From Bradyrhizobium sp. B124 (lineage in GTDB: Bacteria; Pseudomonadota; Alphaproteobacteria; Rhizobiales; Xanthobacteraceae): DNA of 64,000 nucleotides. The stretch spans positions 1,364,001 to 1,428,000 of the forward strand of contig NZ_CP152413.1 of assembly GCF_038967635.1 (NCBI RefSeq), given 5' to 3'. Position 1 is the first letter of the stretch. Every line of letters starts with the position of its first letter. Made by a program: the position numbers and the translations under genes. Positions 49,340-63,891 of the stretch are shown here, one piece after another. The notes below the pieces were generated by a model. It had not been told where the DNA came from. It saw nothing but the letters and a program-made list of their open reading frames with translations, and did no database searches.

Positions 49340-49402
49340 CGATGGCCGCATCTGGGCGTAAACAACGCCCGAATGCTCTCAAACATCGCATGCTTTGAAA
49401 AA

Positions 49403-49447
49403 TGGTCGGAGCGAGAGGATTTGAACCTCCGACCCCTAGTCTCCCAG
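49403..49447 (-). other. tRNA-Pro 3' fragment, prophage attachment scar
   Basis: On the minus strand 45 nt run from an anticodon loop CTGGGAG (GGG anticodon) through variable region, T-arm GGAGG-TTCAAAT-CCTCT, acceptor CGCTCCG, A73 and CCA. The 5' half (D-arm, left anticodon stem, CGGAGCG) is missing; sequence 49448 onwards does not pair. A C1:G72-type acceptor fits tRNA-Pro. Its 3' end faces the host genes and the broken side faces the phage genes, the geometry left when a phage inserts into a tRNA 3' end; the intact gene should stand at the far end of the prophage. Confidence 0.8.
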
Positions 49448-49571
49448 ACGCGGGAAGATACTTGAAATAGCTCAACTTTTTTGACAACTGCTACATTCTA
49501 AGGGCGCTGAAAACAAACGGTTTTCTATTCCGATTGGCAACCGGAATTTCTATGTTTCGCCGATGACTTAA

Positions 49572-49809
49572 CAGCTCCTCCTGCGGCCTACCGTGATCGG
49601 CGGCGAGACCGCGCCCGACGACCACATAGTGATTTGGGACGGCATCCAAATAGGCCGCATCTACCGGCAACAGGGCATGCAAAGGGGAAGCGCGGCCGTG
49701 CGTGGAACGTGAACTTCCCGGGCGGCAGCGCGGCAACTGCGCCGACGTCGAGGAATGTCAGCGGATGGTGAAGCTGATTTGGGCCGCGATCCGCCCCATT
49801 CTCACCTAG
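49572..49809 (+). pseudogene. Frameshifted remnant of a small protein gene
   Basis: One frame gives VIGGETAPDDHIVIWDGIQI then GRIYRQQGMQRG before a stop; a second frame supplies WNVNFPGG; a third supplies CADVEECQRMVKLIWAAIRP and ends in TAG at 49807-49809. Together these resemble the short proteins common beside integrases in rhizobial islands (a GET-x-PDD-x-V-x-WDG core and a C-terminal W-A-R helix). At least two frameshifts are needed, so it is not functional. Confidence 0.6.
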
Positions 49810-49979
49810 GACGATATTCGCAAGGCTCGCGAGAGCAACGGCGCAGCGTTTTGAAAGCAGGCCAGAAGGTCCGCGGCGGGACAGGTCGAAAGTAGCATCC
49901 GAAGCGCTTGCAAAACCACAAGAATCCTTGCAGGTTAAAGCTTTGCCGCTGGTTGGATGAAATTTTAGGTTTAGGTTCA
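49810..49979. other. Leader region of the dCTP deaminase gene
   Basis: 170 bases between the decayed gene and the deaminase start. No ORF of weight. The sequence CTTGCA occurs twice 20 bases apart (49906 and 49927 regions). In Vibrio the related avcD gene is preceded by a small inhibitory RNA (AvcI); an RNA of that sort would have to lie here, but I cannot show one by eye. Confidence 0.35.
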
Positions 49980-51518
49980 ATGGTTAGAGTGAAAAGCGCT
50001 AGCGCGTCAAAAATTACAGCCGCCAGCAATACCGACAATATCGCGGAGATTAAAGACACCCATACGAGCGAGCTCGTCATCGCCCTCTGCGGCCCAATCG
50101 GATCACCCATCCAAGACGTTGCCAAGGCGTTTAAGGAGTGCCTCGAGAAGAGCTTTGGGTATGACTATGCCGAGATCCTGAAACTCAGCCGCCAAATTGA
50201 AAAACTTAGCGGATCGGCCCCGGCCGGAAACGAATATACGCGGATCAAATACCTGATCGATAAAGGCGACGAACTTCGGGAAAGATACGGCGCCGGCGTA
50301 CTGGCAGAGCTTGCCGTCAGTGAAATTGCCCTTGATCGGCAGAAACACAAAAAAAAGGACGGCCTCGAAACGTTCGAGCCGCGGCGGGTTTGCCACATCA
50401 TCGATTCGATCAAGAATCAGCAGGAACTCGACTTGCTCCGCTTGGTCTATCGAGACATGGTTTACGTGGTGGGCGTGTACGCTCCTCAATCGCGCAGGAC
50501 TAAGGCGCTCGAGCAGAAGGGCATGAGCCTGCAGCAGATTTACACGCTCATCGACCGCGATTCGGGCGAAGAGTTCGCCCACGGTCAGACCGTCAGGGAT
50601 ACCTTCCCCAACGCCGATTTCTTCCTCCGAATCGATTCGAACTCCGGCAGCCAGGTGAAAGCGCGGGTCGAACGCTTTCTGAACCTCATCCTGGGCGTCA
50701 AGGTCATGACGCCCACCTACTCAGAAACGGCAATGTATGCTGCCGCCTCAGCTGCGGGTAACTCGGCCTGCCTTTCCCGTCAGGTCGGTGCCGCGATCAC
50801 GGACACACAGGGTGACGTAATCGCGACCGGCTGGAACGATGTCCCCAAGTTCGGTGGAGGCCTCTACGCAGCCGACCCCAATGGCGACCCTAAGTCCGAC
50901 CACGACCTACGCTGCTGGAACAAGGGCGGCAAATGCTACAATGACGACGAGAAGCACCTGATCGCCGAGATGCTCGTCAACGAGCTCGTAGGAGCTAAGA
51001 CAATTGTGGAGGCAGACAAGGAAAAGGCGAAAAACGCAATCCTTGCAAATGGAAAGCTAAAAAACCTCATCGAATTTTCCCGCTCGGTTCATGCCGAAAT
51101 GCACGCTATTATCAATGCTGGGAAAAACGGAGTGGCTCTAGGGGGAAGCAAGCTGTTCGTCACGACCTATCCGTGTCACAGCTGCGCTAGGCATATCGTC
51201 GCTGCCGGTATTTCGGAAGTTTATTTCATCGAACCTTATAGAAAGAGTTTGGCAACCAAGCTCCACGATGATGCAATTACCGAAGACGAGTCGGACATGA
51301 AGAAGGTTCGCGTGCTTCCATATGATGGAGTGGCGCCCGCCCGATATTTAAAGCTGTTCCGGGTACCCCCGGACAGCCGCAAGTCCAAAGGCGTACTTTT
51401 GGCGATCGATCCCCGCCATTCCCAGCCCCGTTTCGATAAGACGGTGGAAGCTCTGCCGACCCTTGAGGCAGTCGTTGTAAAGAGGCTAAGAGAGAAGAAC
51501 TTAATTGAGGCGGGGTAA
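49980..51518 (+). CDS. Anti-phage dCTP/dCMP deaminase (AvcD-like)
   Basis: 512 residues from ATG 49980; a TTG 24 codons upstream is less likely. N-terminal P-loop-like domain (VIALCGPIGSPIQDVAKAFK, residues 33-52, no Walker lysine; IDSIKNQQELDLLRLVYRDM at 141-160). C-terminal deaminase domain: zinc ligand and proton shuttle in SVHAEMHAIINAG (His371, Glu373), then TTYPCHSCARHIVAAG (Cys399, Cys402). Two-domain proteins of this size and order are the dCTP deaminase defence family (AvcD), which empties dCTP pools when phage attack. Ends facing the lysis cassette, beside the attachment scar. A/T-ending codons and A-runs are more common than in the neighbours, a sign of transfer. Confidence 0.85.
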   Translation: MVRVKSASASKITAASNTDNIAEIKDTHTSELVIALCGPIGSPIQDVAKAFKECLEKSFGYDYAEILKLSRQIEKLSGSAPAGNEYTRIKYLIDKGDELRERYGAGVLAELAVSEIALDRQKHKKKDGLETFEPRRVCHIIDSIKNQQELDLLRLVYRDMVYVVGVYAPQSRRTKALEQKGMSLQQIYTLIDRDSGEEFAHGQTVRDTFPNADFFLRIDSNSGSQVKARVERFLNLILGVKVMTPTYSETAMYAAASAAGNSACLSRQVGAAITDTQGDVIATGWNDVPKFGGGLYAADPNGDPKSDHDLRCWNKGGKCYNDDEKHLIAEMLVNELVGAKTIVEADKEKAKNAILANGKLKNLIEFSRSVHAEMHAIINAGKNGVALGGSKLFVTTYPCHSCARHIVAAGISEVYFIEPYRKSLATKLHDDAITEDESDMKKVRVLPYDGVAPARYLKLFRVPPDSRKSKGVLLAIDPRHSQPRFDKTVEALPTLEAVVVKRLREKNLIEAG

Positions 51519-51523
51519 CGCCA

Positions 51524-51718
51524 ATGGCCAACAAATCGGACGGACAGCTCAGCTTGGACCTAAATCCTCCTATTTCCGTCTCAAGCGAGCCCAACGAACG
51601 CGGCAAGAGCTCCATACTCTCGCTTTCCGCCCACCGCGAACGCAGAGAGGACGCGGAACGCGCCCGGCACTTCTCCGAAATCATCAAGCTTGCCGATCAC
51701 CTCCAGCGCAAGGCCTGA
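51524..51718 (+). CDS. 64-residue protein coupled to the dCTP deaminase gene
   Basis: Starts five bases after the deaminase stop; the GGGG of the ribosome site lies in the end of the upstream gene, so translation is probably coupled. MANKSDGQLSLDLNPPISVS is a polar, likely disordered N-terminus; the C-terminal half (SILSLSAHRERREDAERARH, FSEIIKLADHLQRKA) is predicted as two charged helices. No signal peptide, membrane span or known domain. It ends one base before the end of the convergent DUF6127-like gene. A partner, inhibitor or regulator of the deaminase is possible, but nothing in the sequence proves it. Confidence 0.7.
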   Translation: MANKSDGQLSLDLNPPISVSSEPNERGKSSILSLSAHRERREDAERARHFSEIIKLADHLQRKA

Positions 51719-51719
51719 A

Positions 51720-52013
51720 CTACCGGGAGCCGCCCGGCGCGGAGATCGTTGACGGCGCCGCTGCGCTCGCCTTGAAGCCCGTCCAGAACGCCCAGACGCC
51801 GCCGCTCACGGCCGCGCCGAGCACGCCGGCAATGATGACGTTCCGAACGTGGCGCATCCCGTAGTGGATGTTCCGGAGCGTCGCGAATTGGTTTTGAACG
51901 GAGATCGGGTCTTTCGTGTCGAGCCCGAGCGTGAGAAACGTTTCTGTAACGGCCTCTTTCGCGGCCATCTTCGCAATCTTCTCAAGATCGGTGTGCGTCG
52001 CGGGCGGCATCAC
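51720..52013 (-). CDS. Phage DUF6127-like membrane protein
   Basis: 97 residues. A soluble N-terminus with helices (DLEKIAKMAAKEAVTETFLTLG) is followed by QNQFATLRNIHYGMRHVRNV, one membrane helix VIIAGVLGAAVSGGVWAFWTG and a short tail. Small proteins of this layout (DUF6127-type) are found at the end of lysis cassettes of alphaproteobacterial phages. Overlaps the start of the spanin lipoprotein gene region by four bases (ATGA). A holin accessory role is inference. Confidence 0.7.
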   Translation of the reverse strand: MMPPATHTDLEKIAKMAAKEAVTETFLTLGLDTKDPISVQNQFATLRNIHYGMRHVRNVIIAGVLGAAVSGGVWAFWTGFKASAAAPSTISAPGGSR

Positions 52014-52691: not shown

Positions 52692-53201
52692 TCAATCCTC
52701 CCGGAGACACCACGGACGTTCGCCCCACATGGCATCGGTCCGGCGGTTGTAGAGGCCTTGGAGGAAGGTGCCGTTGGCGTTTACGTACTTCACCATCGCG
52801 TCGCACGCCTGCTTGACGCGGCCTTCGCGCAGATCGCGGCCGATCGACGTCCCGCAGATTTTCCCCTTGCCGAGATTGACCGCGAACGACGCAATCGAAG
52901 CCTGACGGTGCGGCGGATAGGTGGACAGTTCCGGGAGACACTCAGTCGCAACGTCGCTCGCATAGCGCTGCCCGACCGTGGAAAGCGCCTCCTGACATTG
53001 GGCCTTCGTGTAGACGTCGCCGACCTTGAGCCACGGCCAATCGTAGTTCGTGATGCCACCGCACACCGTGATCACGCCAGGCGGATCAAACGGCAGGTGC
53101 TTCGCAACGAGGTTCATGCCCTCCCAATGGGAGATCAGCACGCCAGCCAGGGCGGCGGCCGCCGCAGACAATCCGACGACACGTTTTCGCGCAACAGCCA
53201 T
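52692..53201 (-). CDS. Phage endolysin, GH24 lysozyme
   Basis: 169 residues. An N-terminal weakly hydrophobic helix (GLSAAAAALAGVLISHWEG) suggests a signal-arrest-release type. Catalytic Glu in SHWEG is followed by a Cys-GG-x-T motif (VITVCGGITNYDW) as in the E...C/D...T triad of T4/P1-type lysozymes. ASIASFAVNLGKGKICGTSI and LQGLYNRRTDAMWGE are further family marks. Cleaves the glycan backbone of peptidoglycan at lysis. Overlaps the holin stop by one base. Confidence 0.9.
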   Translation of the reverse strand: MAVARKRVVGLSAAAAALAGVLISHWEGMNLVAKHLPFDPPGVITVCGGITNYDWPWLKVGDVYTKAQCQEALSTVGQRYASDVATECLPELSTYPPHRQASIASFAVNLGKGKICGTSIGRDLREGRVKQACDAMVKYVNANGTFLQGLYNRRTDAMWGERPWCLRED

Positions 53202-53416
53202 TACTGAGCCCCCGGGCGCTTGAGGTAAACCGCAACCCCGTTCGCGACAGACAGCAGGACGCCGCCGACGATGTAGGTTCCGGAAGGAAGGGCTTCGGAG
53301 AGGTGCGGCCAGATCAGCAGGAGGCCACCCACGGCGCTCCAGAACACGGCCTGTTCAATCGCGATGCGCCGACCATGCCGGCGGCGATATGCATTGATGT
53401 TGCTGACGAGCTTCAC
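53201..53416 (-). CDS. Holin-like small membrane protein
   Basis: 71 residues from a GTG at 53416 (VKLVSNINAYRRRHGRR). Two hydrophobic helices, AVFWSAVGGLLLIWPHL and SGTYIVGGVLLSVANGVAVY, with a basic N-terminus and a short basic tail. First gene of the lysis cassette, with TAATG overlap to the endolysin gene. The frame is open upstream to 53539 but that part is shared with the SGNH gene leader and less protein-like. Confidence 0.75.
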   Translation of the reverse strand: MKLVSNINAYRRRHGRRIAIEQAVFWSAVGGLLLIWPHLSEALPSGTYIVGGVLLSVANGVAVYLKRPGAQ

Positions 53417-53570
53417 ATGGCACCCGTTCCCGAAAGGAATTGCGTTCTCGAAAAGGGCTACCGCGGCGCGGTTAGTGGATGTTTCGGCGACCGGTACGGG
53501 GTTACTAAATGCTGCTGTGGCGTTGCCAAATATTGTCAATCATGGGTTGTGGTGCTACGCAGATCGGGAA

Positions 53571-54203
53571 ATGAAGCGTGCCCTGCCCTGGTTGTTATCC
53601 GCCGTTCTGTTCGTCGCCTTCGGCGCGAGCTTTTCAGAACTCCAGCGCATGCGAACACGGTTTGGTGAAGTCACCCGGCACAGCTTCCATGACCATCAGG
53701 ACGTCCGGAAAACAATGATCCGGTACGCTCTGAGCGGCTTGGATCGCCCTATCGTGTTCATGGGCGACAGCATCACGGAAATGGCGCGCTTGCCCGAGAC
53801 AATCAACGGGCGCCCGGTCGTTAACGCCGGGATCGGCGGCGCAACGGTCGATGACTTCGATGCGGTTGCACTCTCACTGCTGGATGATCGCAAGCCGTCC
53901 GTGATCGTCGTTGAGCTTGGCACGAACAACGCAGCGGGGACGATCGGCGCTCGCTACCGCTCCCTGTTGCGCAAGCTGAAAGGCACCTCCGCAACCCTTC
54001 TCGCCATCGGCGTGACGCCGCAGGCCGAAGCCGCCGAAAAGAACGCCGAGATCGAAGCGGCGGCCAAGAGCGAAGGCATCCGCTTCCTCGCCATCGACAT
54101 TCCGGCCGGGTCGACATTCCCGAACGACGTCCATTTGAACGCCGCCGGCTATGCCGCATGGACGCCGGTGATCGCCGCCGCAATCGCGGATCTAATCAGC
54201 TAG
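53571..54203 (+). CDS. SGNH/GDSL hydrolase (prophage cargo)
   Basis: 210 residues from ATG 53571. A leader MKRALPWLLSAVLFVAFGAS may be a signal peptide or anchor. SGNH blocks: I VFMGDSIT, II NAGIGGATVDDF, III VVELGTNNA, V DVHLNAAGY with Asp-x-x-His. Such hydrolases remove acyl groups from glycans or lipids. It faces opposite to the late genes on both sides and lies between the tail fibre and the lysis cassette, a usual position for a moron gene that alters the lysogen's surface. Overlaps the tail fibre gene end by four bases. Confidence 0.85.
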   Translation: MKRALPWLLSAVLFVAFGASFSELQRMRTRFGEVTRHSFHDHQDVRKTMIRYALSGLDRPIVFMGDSITEMARLPETINGRPVVNAGIGGATVDDFDAVALSLLDDRKPSVIVVELGTNNAAGTIGARYRSLLRKLKGTSATLLAIGVTPQAEAAEKNAEIEAAAKSEGIRFLAIDIPAGSTFPNDVHLNAAGYAAWTPVIAAAIADLIS

Positions 54204-55189
54204 ATAATCCGCATGATATAGTTGCAGACGATCGACGGTTGCACCGTCGCAAATGGCTGGCTACTGCCGCCCTGTGGCGAGCCCGAGAAACCTGCGGAAA
54301 CGTTCAAGCCTGCGGTGAATGCCCCTTGGTTGTTTACCGAGCCCGGCGGCTGCGCAACCTGCACGCCACTGGCGCTGCCTTGACTGATCGCCGATGCTAC
54401 GAGCGTCGTGATTGTGCCAGATGCAGAAACGCTGCCCGCCGGCGTATAGGGCGGAAGATTTGACGTGTTGAGTGTCTGCGTCTGCGAACCGCCAACGCCG
54501 CTAAGACCGACATAATTAAAAGCGGCACCGCTGATCCGTCCAGCGCCACCATCAGCCGCAACAGAAGCGCGCCCGCGCTTGTCGGGCAAGTTGAAGGTGG
54601 TCGATCCATCCCCAACACCGAATGTAGTCCCAACCATCGCGAAAAGCGCTGAATAGGTGGTTCTTGAGATCGCTTGCCCCACCGGGAAAGCGAATGAACT
54701 ATTCGGGGTCGAGAAGCCCCAGTAGTCCATGCCGGCGGCGAGCGGCACATTGTACGGGTTGCCGTAGAGACCCCGCAAATAGAATGCATTGTCCGCGTTC
54801 CGATAGAAAGCAACGTAGGGCGTCCCTTGAATGAGAACGCCAGAAAGCAGCTCCGCACCGGGTGCGGTCCGCAATGGCTGCACCCCGAGCCCATCAACGT
54901 TGAGCGTCACCGGACCGGCCGTGTTGGTCGCATGGGGCGTAAACGCGATCATTGCGCCGTCCATGTGCGCCAGCGTGTCAAAGCCCTGGTTGCTCGAAAT
55001 CACGTAGGCCGTTGCCGACCCTGTGGTGACGATCGCGCCCGAAATGTCGTCGCGATATTTCGCCGCGGCGGCCATCATGCCGCGCGTGCCGTCATTCAAC
55101 GCCGAAGGCGCCATACCTTCCGGAAACGGGCAAGTGCTGTCAGCCGTCGCGTTCGCACCGGCGGTCTTACTCCACTTCCAAAACGTCAT
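54200..55189 (-). CDS. Phage tail fibre with collar domain
   Basis: 329 residues. N-terminal virion-binding part (MTFWKWSKTAGANATADSTC), a beta-rich centre (FTPHATNTAGPVTLNVDGLG), then the tail-collar motif FPVGQAISRTTYSALFAMVGTTFGVGDGSTTFNLPDKRGRASVAAD near residues 165-215. The rest is a Gly/Ser-rich tip ending FATVQPSIVCNYIMRII, the fixed C-terminus of the collar family. Recognises the host surface. Confidence 0.9.
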   Translation of the reverse strand: MTFWKWSKTAGANATADSTCPFPEGMAPSALNDGTRGMMAAAAKYRDDISGAIVTTGSATAYVISSNQGFDTLAHMDGAMIAFTPHATNTAGPVTLNVDGLGVQPLRTAPGAELLSGVLIQGTPYVAFYRNADNAFYLRGLYGNPYNVPLAAGMDYWGFSTPNSSFAFPVGQAISRTTYSALFAMVGTTFGVGDGSTTFNLPDKRGRASVAADGGAGRISGAAFNYVGLSGVGGSQTQTLNTSNLPPYTPAGSVSASGTITTLVASAISQGSASGVQVAQPPGSVNNQGAFTAGLNVSAGFSGSPQGGSSQPFATVQPSIVCNYIMRII

Positions 55190-62121: not shown

Positions 62122-62413
62122 AAAAGAATGTGCGGTCCGTTTGAGCGTTGTTCGCGTGGGTGATCGTGAAAGACTGCTTGCCGGCAGTCCCCACGAACGT
62201 TCCCGACAATGCCGCCGCGGCGTTAGCAGTTCGTGGGAAGAGGAAAACCGCGCTCCCGGACGCGCAGTTGATCGCCGAGACCGTCGTTGACGTCGCCCCG
62301 CTGGCAAGCGTCACCGAGCCCGTCGCGTTTGACCGCCCGTTCGCCAATTGCTGGAGCGAAATCGCGTATTTCGACAGATCGCGCTCGTTGGTATCCGGGA
62401 GAAAAACGCTCAT
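62105..62413 (-). CDS. Small phage virion protein
   Basis: 102 residues (MSVFLPDTNERDLSKYAISL). Ser/Thr/Ala-rich beta-type sequence: GSVTLASGATSTTVSAINCA, SGSAVFLFPRTANAAAALSG, HANNAQTDRTFFYVCLG. Looks like a small structural or decoration protein; similar short proteins with a 'TFFYVCLG' end occur in phage structural modules. Overlaps the 493-residue gene by four bases (ATGA). Confidence 0.72.
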   Translation of the reverse strand: MSVFLPDTNERDLSKYAISLQQLANGRSNATGSVTLASGATSTTVSAINCASGSAVFLFPRTANAAAALSGTFVGTAGKQSFTITHANNAQTDRTFFYVCLG

Positions 62414-63891
62414 CGCTTGCCCTTCGCGGCCAGGTCGACCGGCTCAACCCCATTGATGAACGTCCAAACCGTGCCGGCGGGGATCCGGCAGCGGAAACGG
62501 CTGTAACGAGTGTCGACCAGCATGTTGCAAATGCCCGTCACGGCATTGACCAGCCGCTCAACGCCGGCCTGCACGGTCGCTTGCAGGTTTTCGCGGCGCG
62601 AGGCCGAGCCGTAGACCGCCGGCGCATCGGAGACCGGCCGGAAGCCGATCTTGAGCTTGACCCGGCGCCCATCGGTCCCCTGTTCGGCGGTCTCAAGCGT
62701 CGCCTCGAGGTTCGGACCACGGAAAAACGATGCCTTGTGATCGGTCGAGAACGCCGCCAGCTCCGGAACGATCACCGTCGACAGGCTGTCAAAGGACTGG
62801 ACGATTGCATCCAGGTTCGACCCGATCAGCGTATCCACCGCCTCGAGCGTGATGCCAGGCTGCGCCATCTTGAACAGAAACTCACCCGAGATTTGCAGCG
62901 GCGTGAATTTGTCCAATACCTGGTCGTAGACCAACGCCTTGTCGAACTGGTTCACCACGCCGTTGACCGACTTGTAAGCCCAGAGGACGCGCGAGCTGCG
63001 CGGATCGGCGAAGCCTTGGAAAAGCTGCGGGTTCGTCGCGTCGAGATCGGTGGAAAACGTGCGGTCGACGCGCTCGCGGCCGATCGGCACCGGCACCCCG
63101 CCGGGGTCGATCCGGTGGAAGCCCTTCAACGAGTAGAAGAAGATGCTCGAGCCAGAGCGCACAAGGCTCCCGGGCCCATACACGCCGAGCCCTTCGGCGA
63201 TCTTCTGGATTTGGAACACGCGGGGATCGCCCGGCAGGTAGATCATGCGCCGGATGATGTTGTCTTGCAGGATGACGCCCGTTTCCCCGCCGGCGATGCC
63301 GCGGCAAAAGCCGCCGTCCGCCAAATCCTGGTAATCCGCCGAGTTGATGCCGGGCGTCCATGAATTCGGGCCGTTCACGTCATTGAGGCCCGACCACTGC
63401 ACGCGGTTCGGATTGGACAGCAGGCCGCCCAGGACCACGAACCGACCCACGATGTCGATGTAGCGCGCCTGCGGCGGATTGCCGGCCACGTTCGCGAAGG
63501 CGGTCGAACTGGAAATGTCGAAATATTGCAGAACGACGTTCGCTTGGGTCGCGATCACCAGGTTGTTGAACTGGACAAACTGCCAATTGTCGTTGGCCGA
63601 GACCGCGGCATATGGGCCGCCGGCAAGCGACACCTTCGAAAATCCATAGGTGGTGTTGTCCATCAGCCAGAGATCGGACGCCGTTGCCGCGAACACGACA
63701 ACAGAACCGTCCGTCTTATAGGCGGCGAACGCGCCGCGGCACTGTGCGCCGAGCGCCTGCGAGAGCGCGGTGAGGCTTGGAAACGGCCCGTAGCCGTCGC
63801 CGCGCGGCACCACGTTGAGCACGTTGCGGCCGGTCTGCGCCTGGTAGTCGCTGAGATCGGGACGGTAGTCGGGAAACGGGATGACCGGCAT
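62410..63891 (-). CDS. Phage DNA-stabilisation / tail protein (P22 gp10-like)
   Basis: 493 residues (MPVIPFPDYRPDLSDYQAQT). Features: DYRPDLSDYQAQTGRNVLNVVPRGDGY, repeated beta strands with Trp/Phe/Tyr and WSGLNDVNGPNSWTPGINSA, QIQKIAEGLGVYGPGSLVRSG and FFYSLKGFHRIDPGGVPVPIG. This resembles the packaged-DNA-stabilisation or tail-hub proteins of podoviruses, which close the portal after packaging. Begins with a TGATG overlap to the gene upstream. Confidence 0.75.
   Translation of the reverse strand: MPVIPFPDYRPDLSDYQAQTGRNVLNVVPRGDGYGPFPSLTALSQALGAQCRGAFAAYKTDGSVVVFAATASDLWLMDNTTYGFSKVSLAGGPYAAVSANDNWQFVQFNNLVIATQANVVLQYFDISSSTAFANVAGNPPQARYIDIVGRFVVLGGLLSNPNRVQWSGLNDVNGPNSWTPGINSADYQDLADGGFCRGIAGGETGVILQDNIIRRMIYLPGDPRVFQIQKIAEGLGVYGPGSLVRSGSSIFFYSLKGFHRIDPGGVPVPIGRERVDRTFSTDLDATNPQLFQGFADPRSSRVLWAYKSVNGVVNQFDKALVYDQVLDKFTPLQISGEFLFKMAQPGITLEAVDTLIGSNLDAIVQSFDSLSTVIVPELAAFSTDHKASFFRGPNLEATLETAEQGTDGRRVKLKIGFRPVSDAPAVYGSASRRENLQATVQAGVERLVNAVTGICNMLVDTRYSRFRCRIPAGTVWTFINGVEPVDLAAKGKR

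Follow-up and report, generated by a model that had tools for sequence, protein, structure and literature searches.

The window, by which we mean the whole 64,000-nt stretch of Bradyrhizobium sp. B124 DNA analysed here, contains the attL end of a prophage and, between the attachment scar and the phage lysis genes, a deaminase gene followed at once by a small open reading frame (ORF) (Table 1). The attL core is one copy of an exact 51-bp repeat; the other, at genome positions 1452845-1452895, lies within the intact tRNA-Pro(GGG) gene. The 39,497 bp (39.5 kb) between the two copies carry genes for endolysin, tail, virion, major head, portal and terminase proteins, with an integrase near the far end. 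The deaminase gene, cargo at the attL end, begins 530 bp beyond the scar and close to the lysis genes, with the integrase at the other attachment end. The initial annotation, made from the sequence alone, had placed the gene at a prophage edge beside an attachment scar and against the late genes, and both placements are borne out. Its further remark on lower G/C is right for the gene itself (56-57% at 50-52 kb versus 62-71% at 1-45 kb); an equally low 57% is seen, however, at 48-50 kb, in DNA surrounding the scar and immediately to its left. The interval of about 450 bp from the scar to the cassette (49450-49897) falls outside the blocks homologous to the two relatives described below. On the opposite strand to the prophage lysis and tail genes, and between them, an ORF at 53364-54203 (+) with the segment ..VFMGDSITEM.. 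appears by eye to be SGNH/GDSL hydrolase-like.

Table 1. Features at the attL end of the prophage (window coordinates).
Feature	Position	Strand	Remarks
attL core	49399..49449	.	51 bp of tRNA-Pro(GGG), identical to genome 1452845-1452895
Conserved cassette leader	49898..49979	+	homology starts at 49898 with B. pachyrhizi (L033) and at 49936 with Bradyrhizobium sp. 138 (L034)
Anti-phage dCTP deaminase (AvcD/dCTPase family)	49980..51518	+	512 aa
P-loop NMP-kinase-like domain (predicted)	50073..50693	+	residues 32-238
Degenerate Walker A, GPIGSP	50091..50108	+	residues 38-43; residue 44 is not lysine
Zinc deaminase domain (predicted)	50709..51386	+	residues 244-469
HAE zinc/proton-shuttle motif	51090..51098	+	residues 371-373; sequence and alignment, 66/66 rows
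PCHSC zinc motif	51171..51185	+	residues 398-402; sequence and alignment, P398/C399/C402 in 66/66 rows
Small partner protein (probable)	51524..51718	+	64 aa; five bases after the deaminase stop codon
QLSLDL, sliding-clamp-binding-like motif	51545..51562	+	residues 8-13 of the small protein
Prophage gene phrog_6420	51720..52013	-	unknown function; convergent with the cassette
Prophage endolysin	52692..53201	-
Prophage tail collar/fibre protein	54200..55189	-
Prophage virion structural protein	62410..63891	-	phrog_3287

The deaminase frame is open upstream as far as a TTG at 49908, and the ATG at 49980, from which the 512-residue protein had originally been read, is common to two Bradyrhizobium relatives. 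The product had been named an AvcD-like dCTP deaminase, with a search against dCTP deaminase models proposed as a check. That search supported the name, the protein matching NCBIfam NF041025 at 476.9 bits (curated cut-off 400; profile positions 1-432 of 437) and the PADLOC dCTPase model, a match to one gene, at 2.7e-169 (positions 133-551 of 630). We take both models to include AvcD, and the comparison with AvcD was made through them rather than through the Vibrio cholerae AvcD sequence. The predicted fold and the conserved motifs agree with the two-domain order originally described, a P-loop kinase-like domain that lacks the Walker lysine and, after it, a zinc deaminase domain. At residue 44, the lysine position of GxxGxGK, lysine occurs in 0 of the 63 aligned rows that have sequence there, so that its loss is a trait of the family; residue 45 is lysine in nine rows. 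H371, A372, E373, P398, C399 and C402 are invariant in all 66 aligned family members, placing HAE where the initial annotation had it and confirming PCHSC as a motif, although the latter had been placed at 399-402, one residue late. The VIA list for the deaminase structural model held mostly deaminases, and parts of the model may have other folds. Although the catalytic domain has the fold of ComEB and dCMP deaminase, the alternative against which the first identification had been set, an ordinary enzyme of that type is ruled out by the model scores: the ComEB equivalog model gave 53.9 bits, far below its cut-off of 219.45, and the protein has the extra P-loop domain. Taken alone, the deaminase is a further member of an already known prophage-borne defence family, reportedly founded by two papers in 2022, from which we infer that it would deplete dCTP and defend against phage.

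Among 391 genomes of the bacterial family the distribution of the deaminase is patchy, with matches at E 1e-60 or better in 30 genomes, 25 of them above the cut-off. One genome (G083) carries two full-length dCTP deaminase genes, at C1 1091895-1093241 (+) and 1136941-1138278 (-), one on each strand with about 44 kb between them. An alignment-based scan found relatives on 24 IMG/VR contigs, and a viral-contig scan with a single-protein query returned none. In plasmid records, 50 of 61 matches span at least 80% of the query. Very small plasmids (∼4.6-4.7 kb) with the deaminase recur in Klebsiella (records H51-H70) and E. coli (H74-H76); the two that we inspected (L054 and L055) have a small ORF upstream and few other annotated genes.

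Comparison with two other Bradyrhizobium loci defined the extent of the cassette. The block homologous to B. pachyrhizi runs from 49898 to 51724 (90%) and that homologous to Bradyrhizobium sp. 138 from 49936 to 51719 (83%), with unrelated flanks in both cases. Since homology stops there, the unit consists of a leader of 44-82 bp, the deaminase and the ORF at 51524-51718. A Pfam scan of ten neighbouring ORFs in the two relatives placed five above cut-off and one below, with no match for four; the five are ordinary enzymes (PCMT, anthrone oxygenase, chorismate-binding, amidase and PALP), and from these neighbours the cassette is independent of this particular phage.

The ORF at 51524-51718 behaves as a gene. 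Three pairwise comparisons gave dN/dS values of 0.32, 0.37 and 0.34, against 1.29 and 2.28 for the two other frames in the one pair for which these were calculated (window and Bradyrhizobium sp. 138) and 0.05-0.11 for the deaminase. By these sequence comparisons it is a real protein gene under purifying selection that evolves faster than the deaminase, and a chance ORF is ruled out by selection, conservation and spacing. Its 64-residue product occurs at a single place in its own genome and in 3 of the 391 family genomes, adjoining the deaminase in all three. It also matched 22 other database clusters, and for seven of these the longest contig is exactly as long as that of a deaminase relative, which suggests that the two lie on the same contig. 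The structural model (overall pLDDT 72.1, pTM 0.35) has no structure before residue 35 (pLDDT 54-64), then a predicted helix at 35-63 with block means of 82-96 from residue 41 onward. Searches gave no match in Pfam and, in PADLOC, one weak match to PDC-M02B (E 0.016). Among the matches listed, open-access titles and abstract openings did not mention a small protein partner of the deaminase; most subscription papers lay outside this search. In our judgement the small gene, hereafter gene 2, is very probably a functional partner of the deaminase.

We surveyed 70 deaminase loci for similar genes, dropping near-copies (L073, L078, L079 and L081) and leaving out the window; two loci had too little downstream sequence. 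The rule accepted an ORF of 45-100 aa that starts between -60 and +200 nt from the deaminase stop and whose first 30 residues include either Q[LFIM]x[LFM]x[LFI] or a motif of QxxLF form. Among loci whose tblastn score was at least 300 bits, 19 of 33 had such an ORF, as did 1 of 11 at 240-300 bits and none of the 24 below, and the same rule applied elsewhere in the loci succeeded in 6 of 1932 windows. The patterns were composed after examples were known, so that this control carries more weight than the hit rate. By eye we assigned small ORFs downstream of 26 deaminases (type A) and upstream of 12 (type B), and each of these proteins except that of the window was confirmed as an ORF in its own locus. 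The deaminases of types A and B fall into a single clade of 42 rows (98/88) in a maximum-likelihood tree that contains 66 deaminases and was rooted only at its midpoint. An assigned small ORF (partly by eye) is present in 38 of these rows, and the other four have no upstream sequence. L077, labelled n in the tree, has an ORF nearly identical to that of L081. The sister of this clade comprises five rows (98/94) with a different partner, together with L083, beside which none was seen. Small genes, likely relatives, recur beside deaminases of the same clades, downstream in two clades and upstream in a third that includes Vibrio and enterics. No small partner was seen by eye at the 18 other, deeper-branching deaminases, which implies that the enzyme may work alone.

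Several comparisons indicate that types A and B likely share descent. A type A profile searched against the 12 upstream proteins mixed with 1826 decoy ORFs from the same loci placed upstream proteins at ranks 1-6. The reverse search with a type B profile returned first L077, which is nearly identical to a type B protein and had stayed among the decoys, then the type A proteins of L045 (3.6e-4) and L067 (5.2e-3), then an unrelated decoy (0.54). Two of the 26 type A proteins thus lay above the first unrelated decoy, and the profile link between the types is uneven. Alignment of the two profiles by hhalign gave E 4.9e-5 and a probability of 68% over 35 columns of the C-terminal strand-helix part. 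In a shuffle test 8 of the 12 type B proteins beat all 200 of their own shuffles; for the four failures the number of shuffles that matched or did better was 95 (L056, from Vibrio), 30 (L052), 12 (L049) and 4 (L081). One protein, L068, combines a type A N-terminal QLDLDF with a type B C-terminal ..KLSW, and in the tree its deaminase takes a basal position in the type B clade. A C-terminal tryptophan was found in 9 of 48 upstream ORFs, all nine of type B, and in 41 of the 1826 decoys. An alignment search with type B found 57 proteins, the named ones being hypothetical proteins from Vibrio, Proteus, Klebsiella, E. coli, Salmonella and others.

The N-terminal segment of gene 2, modelled as unstructured at low confidence, contains QLSLDL, which fits the hexapeptide QLxLxL and not the pentapeptide QL(S/D)LF. 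The latter is given as the bacterial clamp motif in a review, where much wider variability is said possibly to be accepted (PMC9690074). PMC3836487 reports that the hexapeptide QLSLPL of E. coli Hda is needed for DnaN binding and that QFKLPL near the N-terminus of Caulobacter HdaA is needed for its interaction with DnaN. Q8 is invariant in an alignment of 39 downstream-type proteins, a selected set that includes 23 close Bradyrhizobium-type relatives and leaves out L040-L043, L046, L050 and L066. Among the 26 type A loci, 22 carry the broad Q pattern (shuffled rate 0.75%), 14 QLxLx[LF], 6 QLxLxL and none QL(S/D)LF; the four with no Q motif are L041, L042, L043 and L066. Within the window's own genome an HdaA-like protein (95.4 bits, below the Hda model cut-off of 194.8) has ..RQLALALP near its N-terminus, and none of three DinB-type loci has the motif by our search pattern, so that the HdaA-like protein is the sole basis for the comparison within this genome. 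The clamp pattern gave one internal match in the 66 deaminases themselves.

The partner gene of the sister clade (L021, L023, L057, L059 and L084) abuts or overlaps the deaminase stop and encodes 172-179 aa in three loci; in L021 and L023 it continues past the end of the locus and encodes at least 463 aa. Neither of two such proteins searched against Pfam matched, nor did PADLOC match any of three, or one upstream-type protein. All five have a motif starting at residues 32-37 (QLSLF, QNSLF, QNTLF, QGMLF or QLSFNL), of which QLSLF alone fits the strict pentapeptide; as a control, 3 of 449 mechanically called ORFs carry these patterns in their first 60 residues. The best argument for DnaN binding is that two unrelated partner families in sister clades carry a clamp-type motif; the best argument against it is that the motif occurs in 0 of the 12 type B proteins. 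From these sequences we put binding of gene 2 to DnaN at slightly below an even chance; another possible role for a strand of alternating hydrophobic residues is to pair with the sheet of the deaminase itself.

On balance we lean towards a two-gene anti-phage module, carried as prophage cargo at the attL end, in which a dCTP-depleting deaminase is combined with a dedicated small partner that would control it. The C-terminal strand-helix module of gene 2 would restrain the deaminase in the uninfected cell, and its N-terminus (QLSLDL) would dock on the sliding clamp DnaN, an arrangement that would tie deaminase activity to the replisome or to infection. Once released, the deaminase, as a two-domain (d)CTP/(d)CMP enzyme, would turn the pool of deoxycytidine nucleotides into deoxyuridine nucleotides, which would starve the incoming phage of dCTP. 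We give even chances to inhibition of the deaminase by gene 2, which we judge from the anatomy of the protein, and regard targeting or activation of the enzyme by gene 2 as rather unlikely. Published data on the Vibrio system partly contradict a protein antitoxin. AvcD is reported to be activated by rifampicin and not by spectinomycin (PMC10511110), and the latter result speaks against a labile protein antitoxin because such a protein would be lost too.

The spectinomycin result is compatible with the best-surviving alternative, in which gene 2, instead of inhibiting the deaminase, is a subunit essential to its targeting or activation, for instance by way of DnaN at the replication fork. The clamp-type motif shared by the two unrelated partner families of the sister clades would suit such a role, and the modelled unstructured motif and helix resemble an adaptor. 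However, two reports (PMC9455884; PMC10511110) describe filamentation and impaired genome replication when AvcD is overproduced in the Vibrio system without AvcI. Because overproduced AvcD acts without AvcI, an activator is unnecessary in Vibrio, and we consider an essential subunit unlikely here.

Still less probable is an ordinary AvcID arrangement, in which an RNA antitoxin restrains the deaminase, the small ORF being either incidental or no more than a reading frame that overlaps this RNA. Such an RNA is published for Vibrio: according to PMC10511110, AvcI is an upstream noncoding RNA of slightly under 300 nt, needs about 171 bases at minimum to function, complexes with AvcD and inhibits it in vitro, and AvcID depletes dCTP. 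The 280 nt upstream of type B deaminases are, moreover, mildly structured (mean folding z -1.23 over 12 loci, relative to shuffles). At the window, however, the folding z is 0.01 for the same upstream interval and -0.36 for the small ORF, neither of which is unusual, and upstream conservation extends over 44-82 nt as against ∼171-300 nt for AvcI. With no Rfam match at the gathering threshold across 44-56 kb either, conservation, folding and Rfam lend no support to an AvcI-sized RNA upstream of the window deaminase; an RNA here may be non-conserved or may overlap the small ORF. The small ORF is, furthermore, selected as protein, as is the ORF in the AvcI position of L054 and L055 (dN/dS 0.29 versus 2.2 and 1.1 in the other frames). 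ORFs of 56-64 codons occupy the AvcI place upstream of the deaminase in L048, L051-L056, L072, L074, L080 and L081, nine of the 11 ending in tryptophan. The Vibrio-type ORF (L056, P0146, P0156, P0158, P0178 and P0181) has 57 codons, or 171 nt, and so agrees with minimal AvcI in length, the property by which the two were compared. Selection on a protein and function as an RNA at this position are compatible and do not exclude one another.

We regard as very improbable that the deaminase is a single-gene system, as PADLOC lists it, with the small gene hitchhiking. The 18 deeper-branching members with no visible partner would fit this, as would a PADLOC match confined to one gene, but the cassette boundaries are common to two relatives, and a small ORF, assigned partly by eye, is present in 38 of the 38 A/B-clade rows that have sequence on the needed side. 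Least probable of all is a phage nucleotide-metabolism enzyme that supplies dUMP for the prophage's own DNA rather than for defence, since in spite of the prophage location and of matches to the protein in 124 of 50,697 phage records (two of them at 80% coverage or more), the score exceeds a curated anti-phage cut-off, the Pfam-matched neighbours in the two relatives are ordinary metabolic enzymes and the gene and the integrase are at opposite attachment ends.

The window deaminase resembles the anti-phage dCTP deaminases (NF041025, PADLOC dCTPase, Vibrio AvcD) in its domain order, degenerate P-loop, zinc motifs, curated match and mobile-element context, and departs from the family as known in that a conserved small protein gene lies directly downstream and a conserved upstream RNA of AvcI size was not seen. 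It shares with the type III toxin-antitoxin system AvcID of Vibrio the enzyme family and an adjacent small regulator locus; the Vibrio regulator is reported as an upstream noncoding RNA (PMC10511110), unlike the downstream protein gene found here, and the 57-codon ORF on the Vibrio side is probably related to the window's small protein. The candidate QLSLDL recalls the N-terminal QLSLPL/QFKLPL-type hexapeptides of Hda and HdaA as given in PMC3836487, but the small protein has no AAA+ domain and its clamp binding is predicted from the motif. The toxin-antitoxin systems SocAB (PMC9690074) and RipAB (PMC12795458) are likewise two-gene modules, a putative link to DnaN being the further likeness; their toxin, however, is reported to act on the clamp, whereas here the motif belongs to the partner and the targets of the enzyme are nucleotides. 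What is new here, and worth testing, is that a protein partner is conserved, that a related-looking ORF stands at the avcI position in other bacteria and that the partner has a clamp-like motif.

A broader generalization, which we offer as speculative and doubtful, is that a large part of the deaminase family is not a set of single-gene systems, nor under RNA control alone, and has a small, hitherto unannotated protein partner, encoded downstream or, in Vibrio and enterics, at the avcI position; that the downstream-type and sister-clade partners dock on DnaN and so couple the system to replication; and that the ∼171-base AvcI is wholly or partly the message of a 57-codon partner. If the partner is real, a second component of a studied defence family would have been overlooked because it has about 60 residues, evolves fast and changes side, and the question of how the enzyme is silenced and triggered would be reopened, including whether AvcI should be read as an antitoxin with no coding role. 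A working clamp motif would link defence by nucleotide depletion to the replisome.
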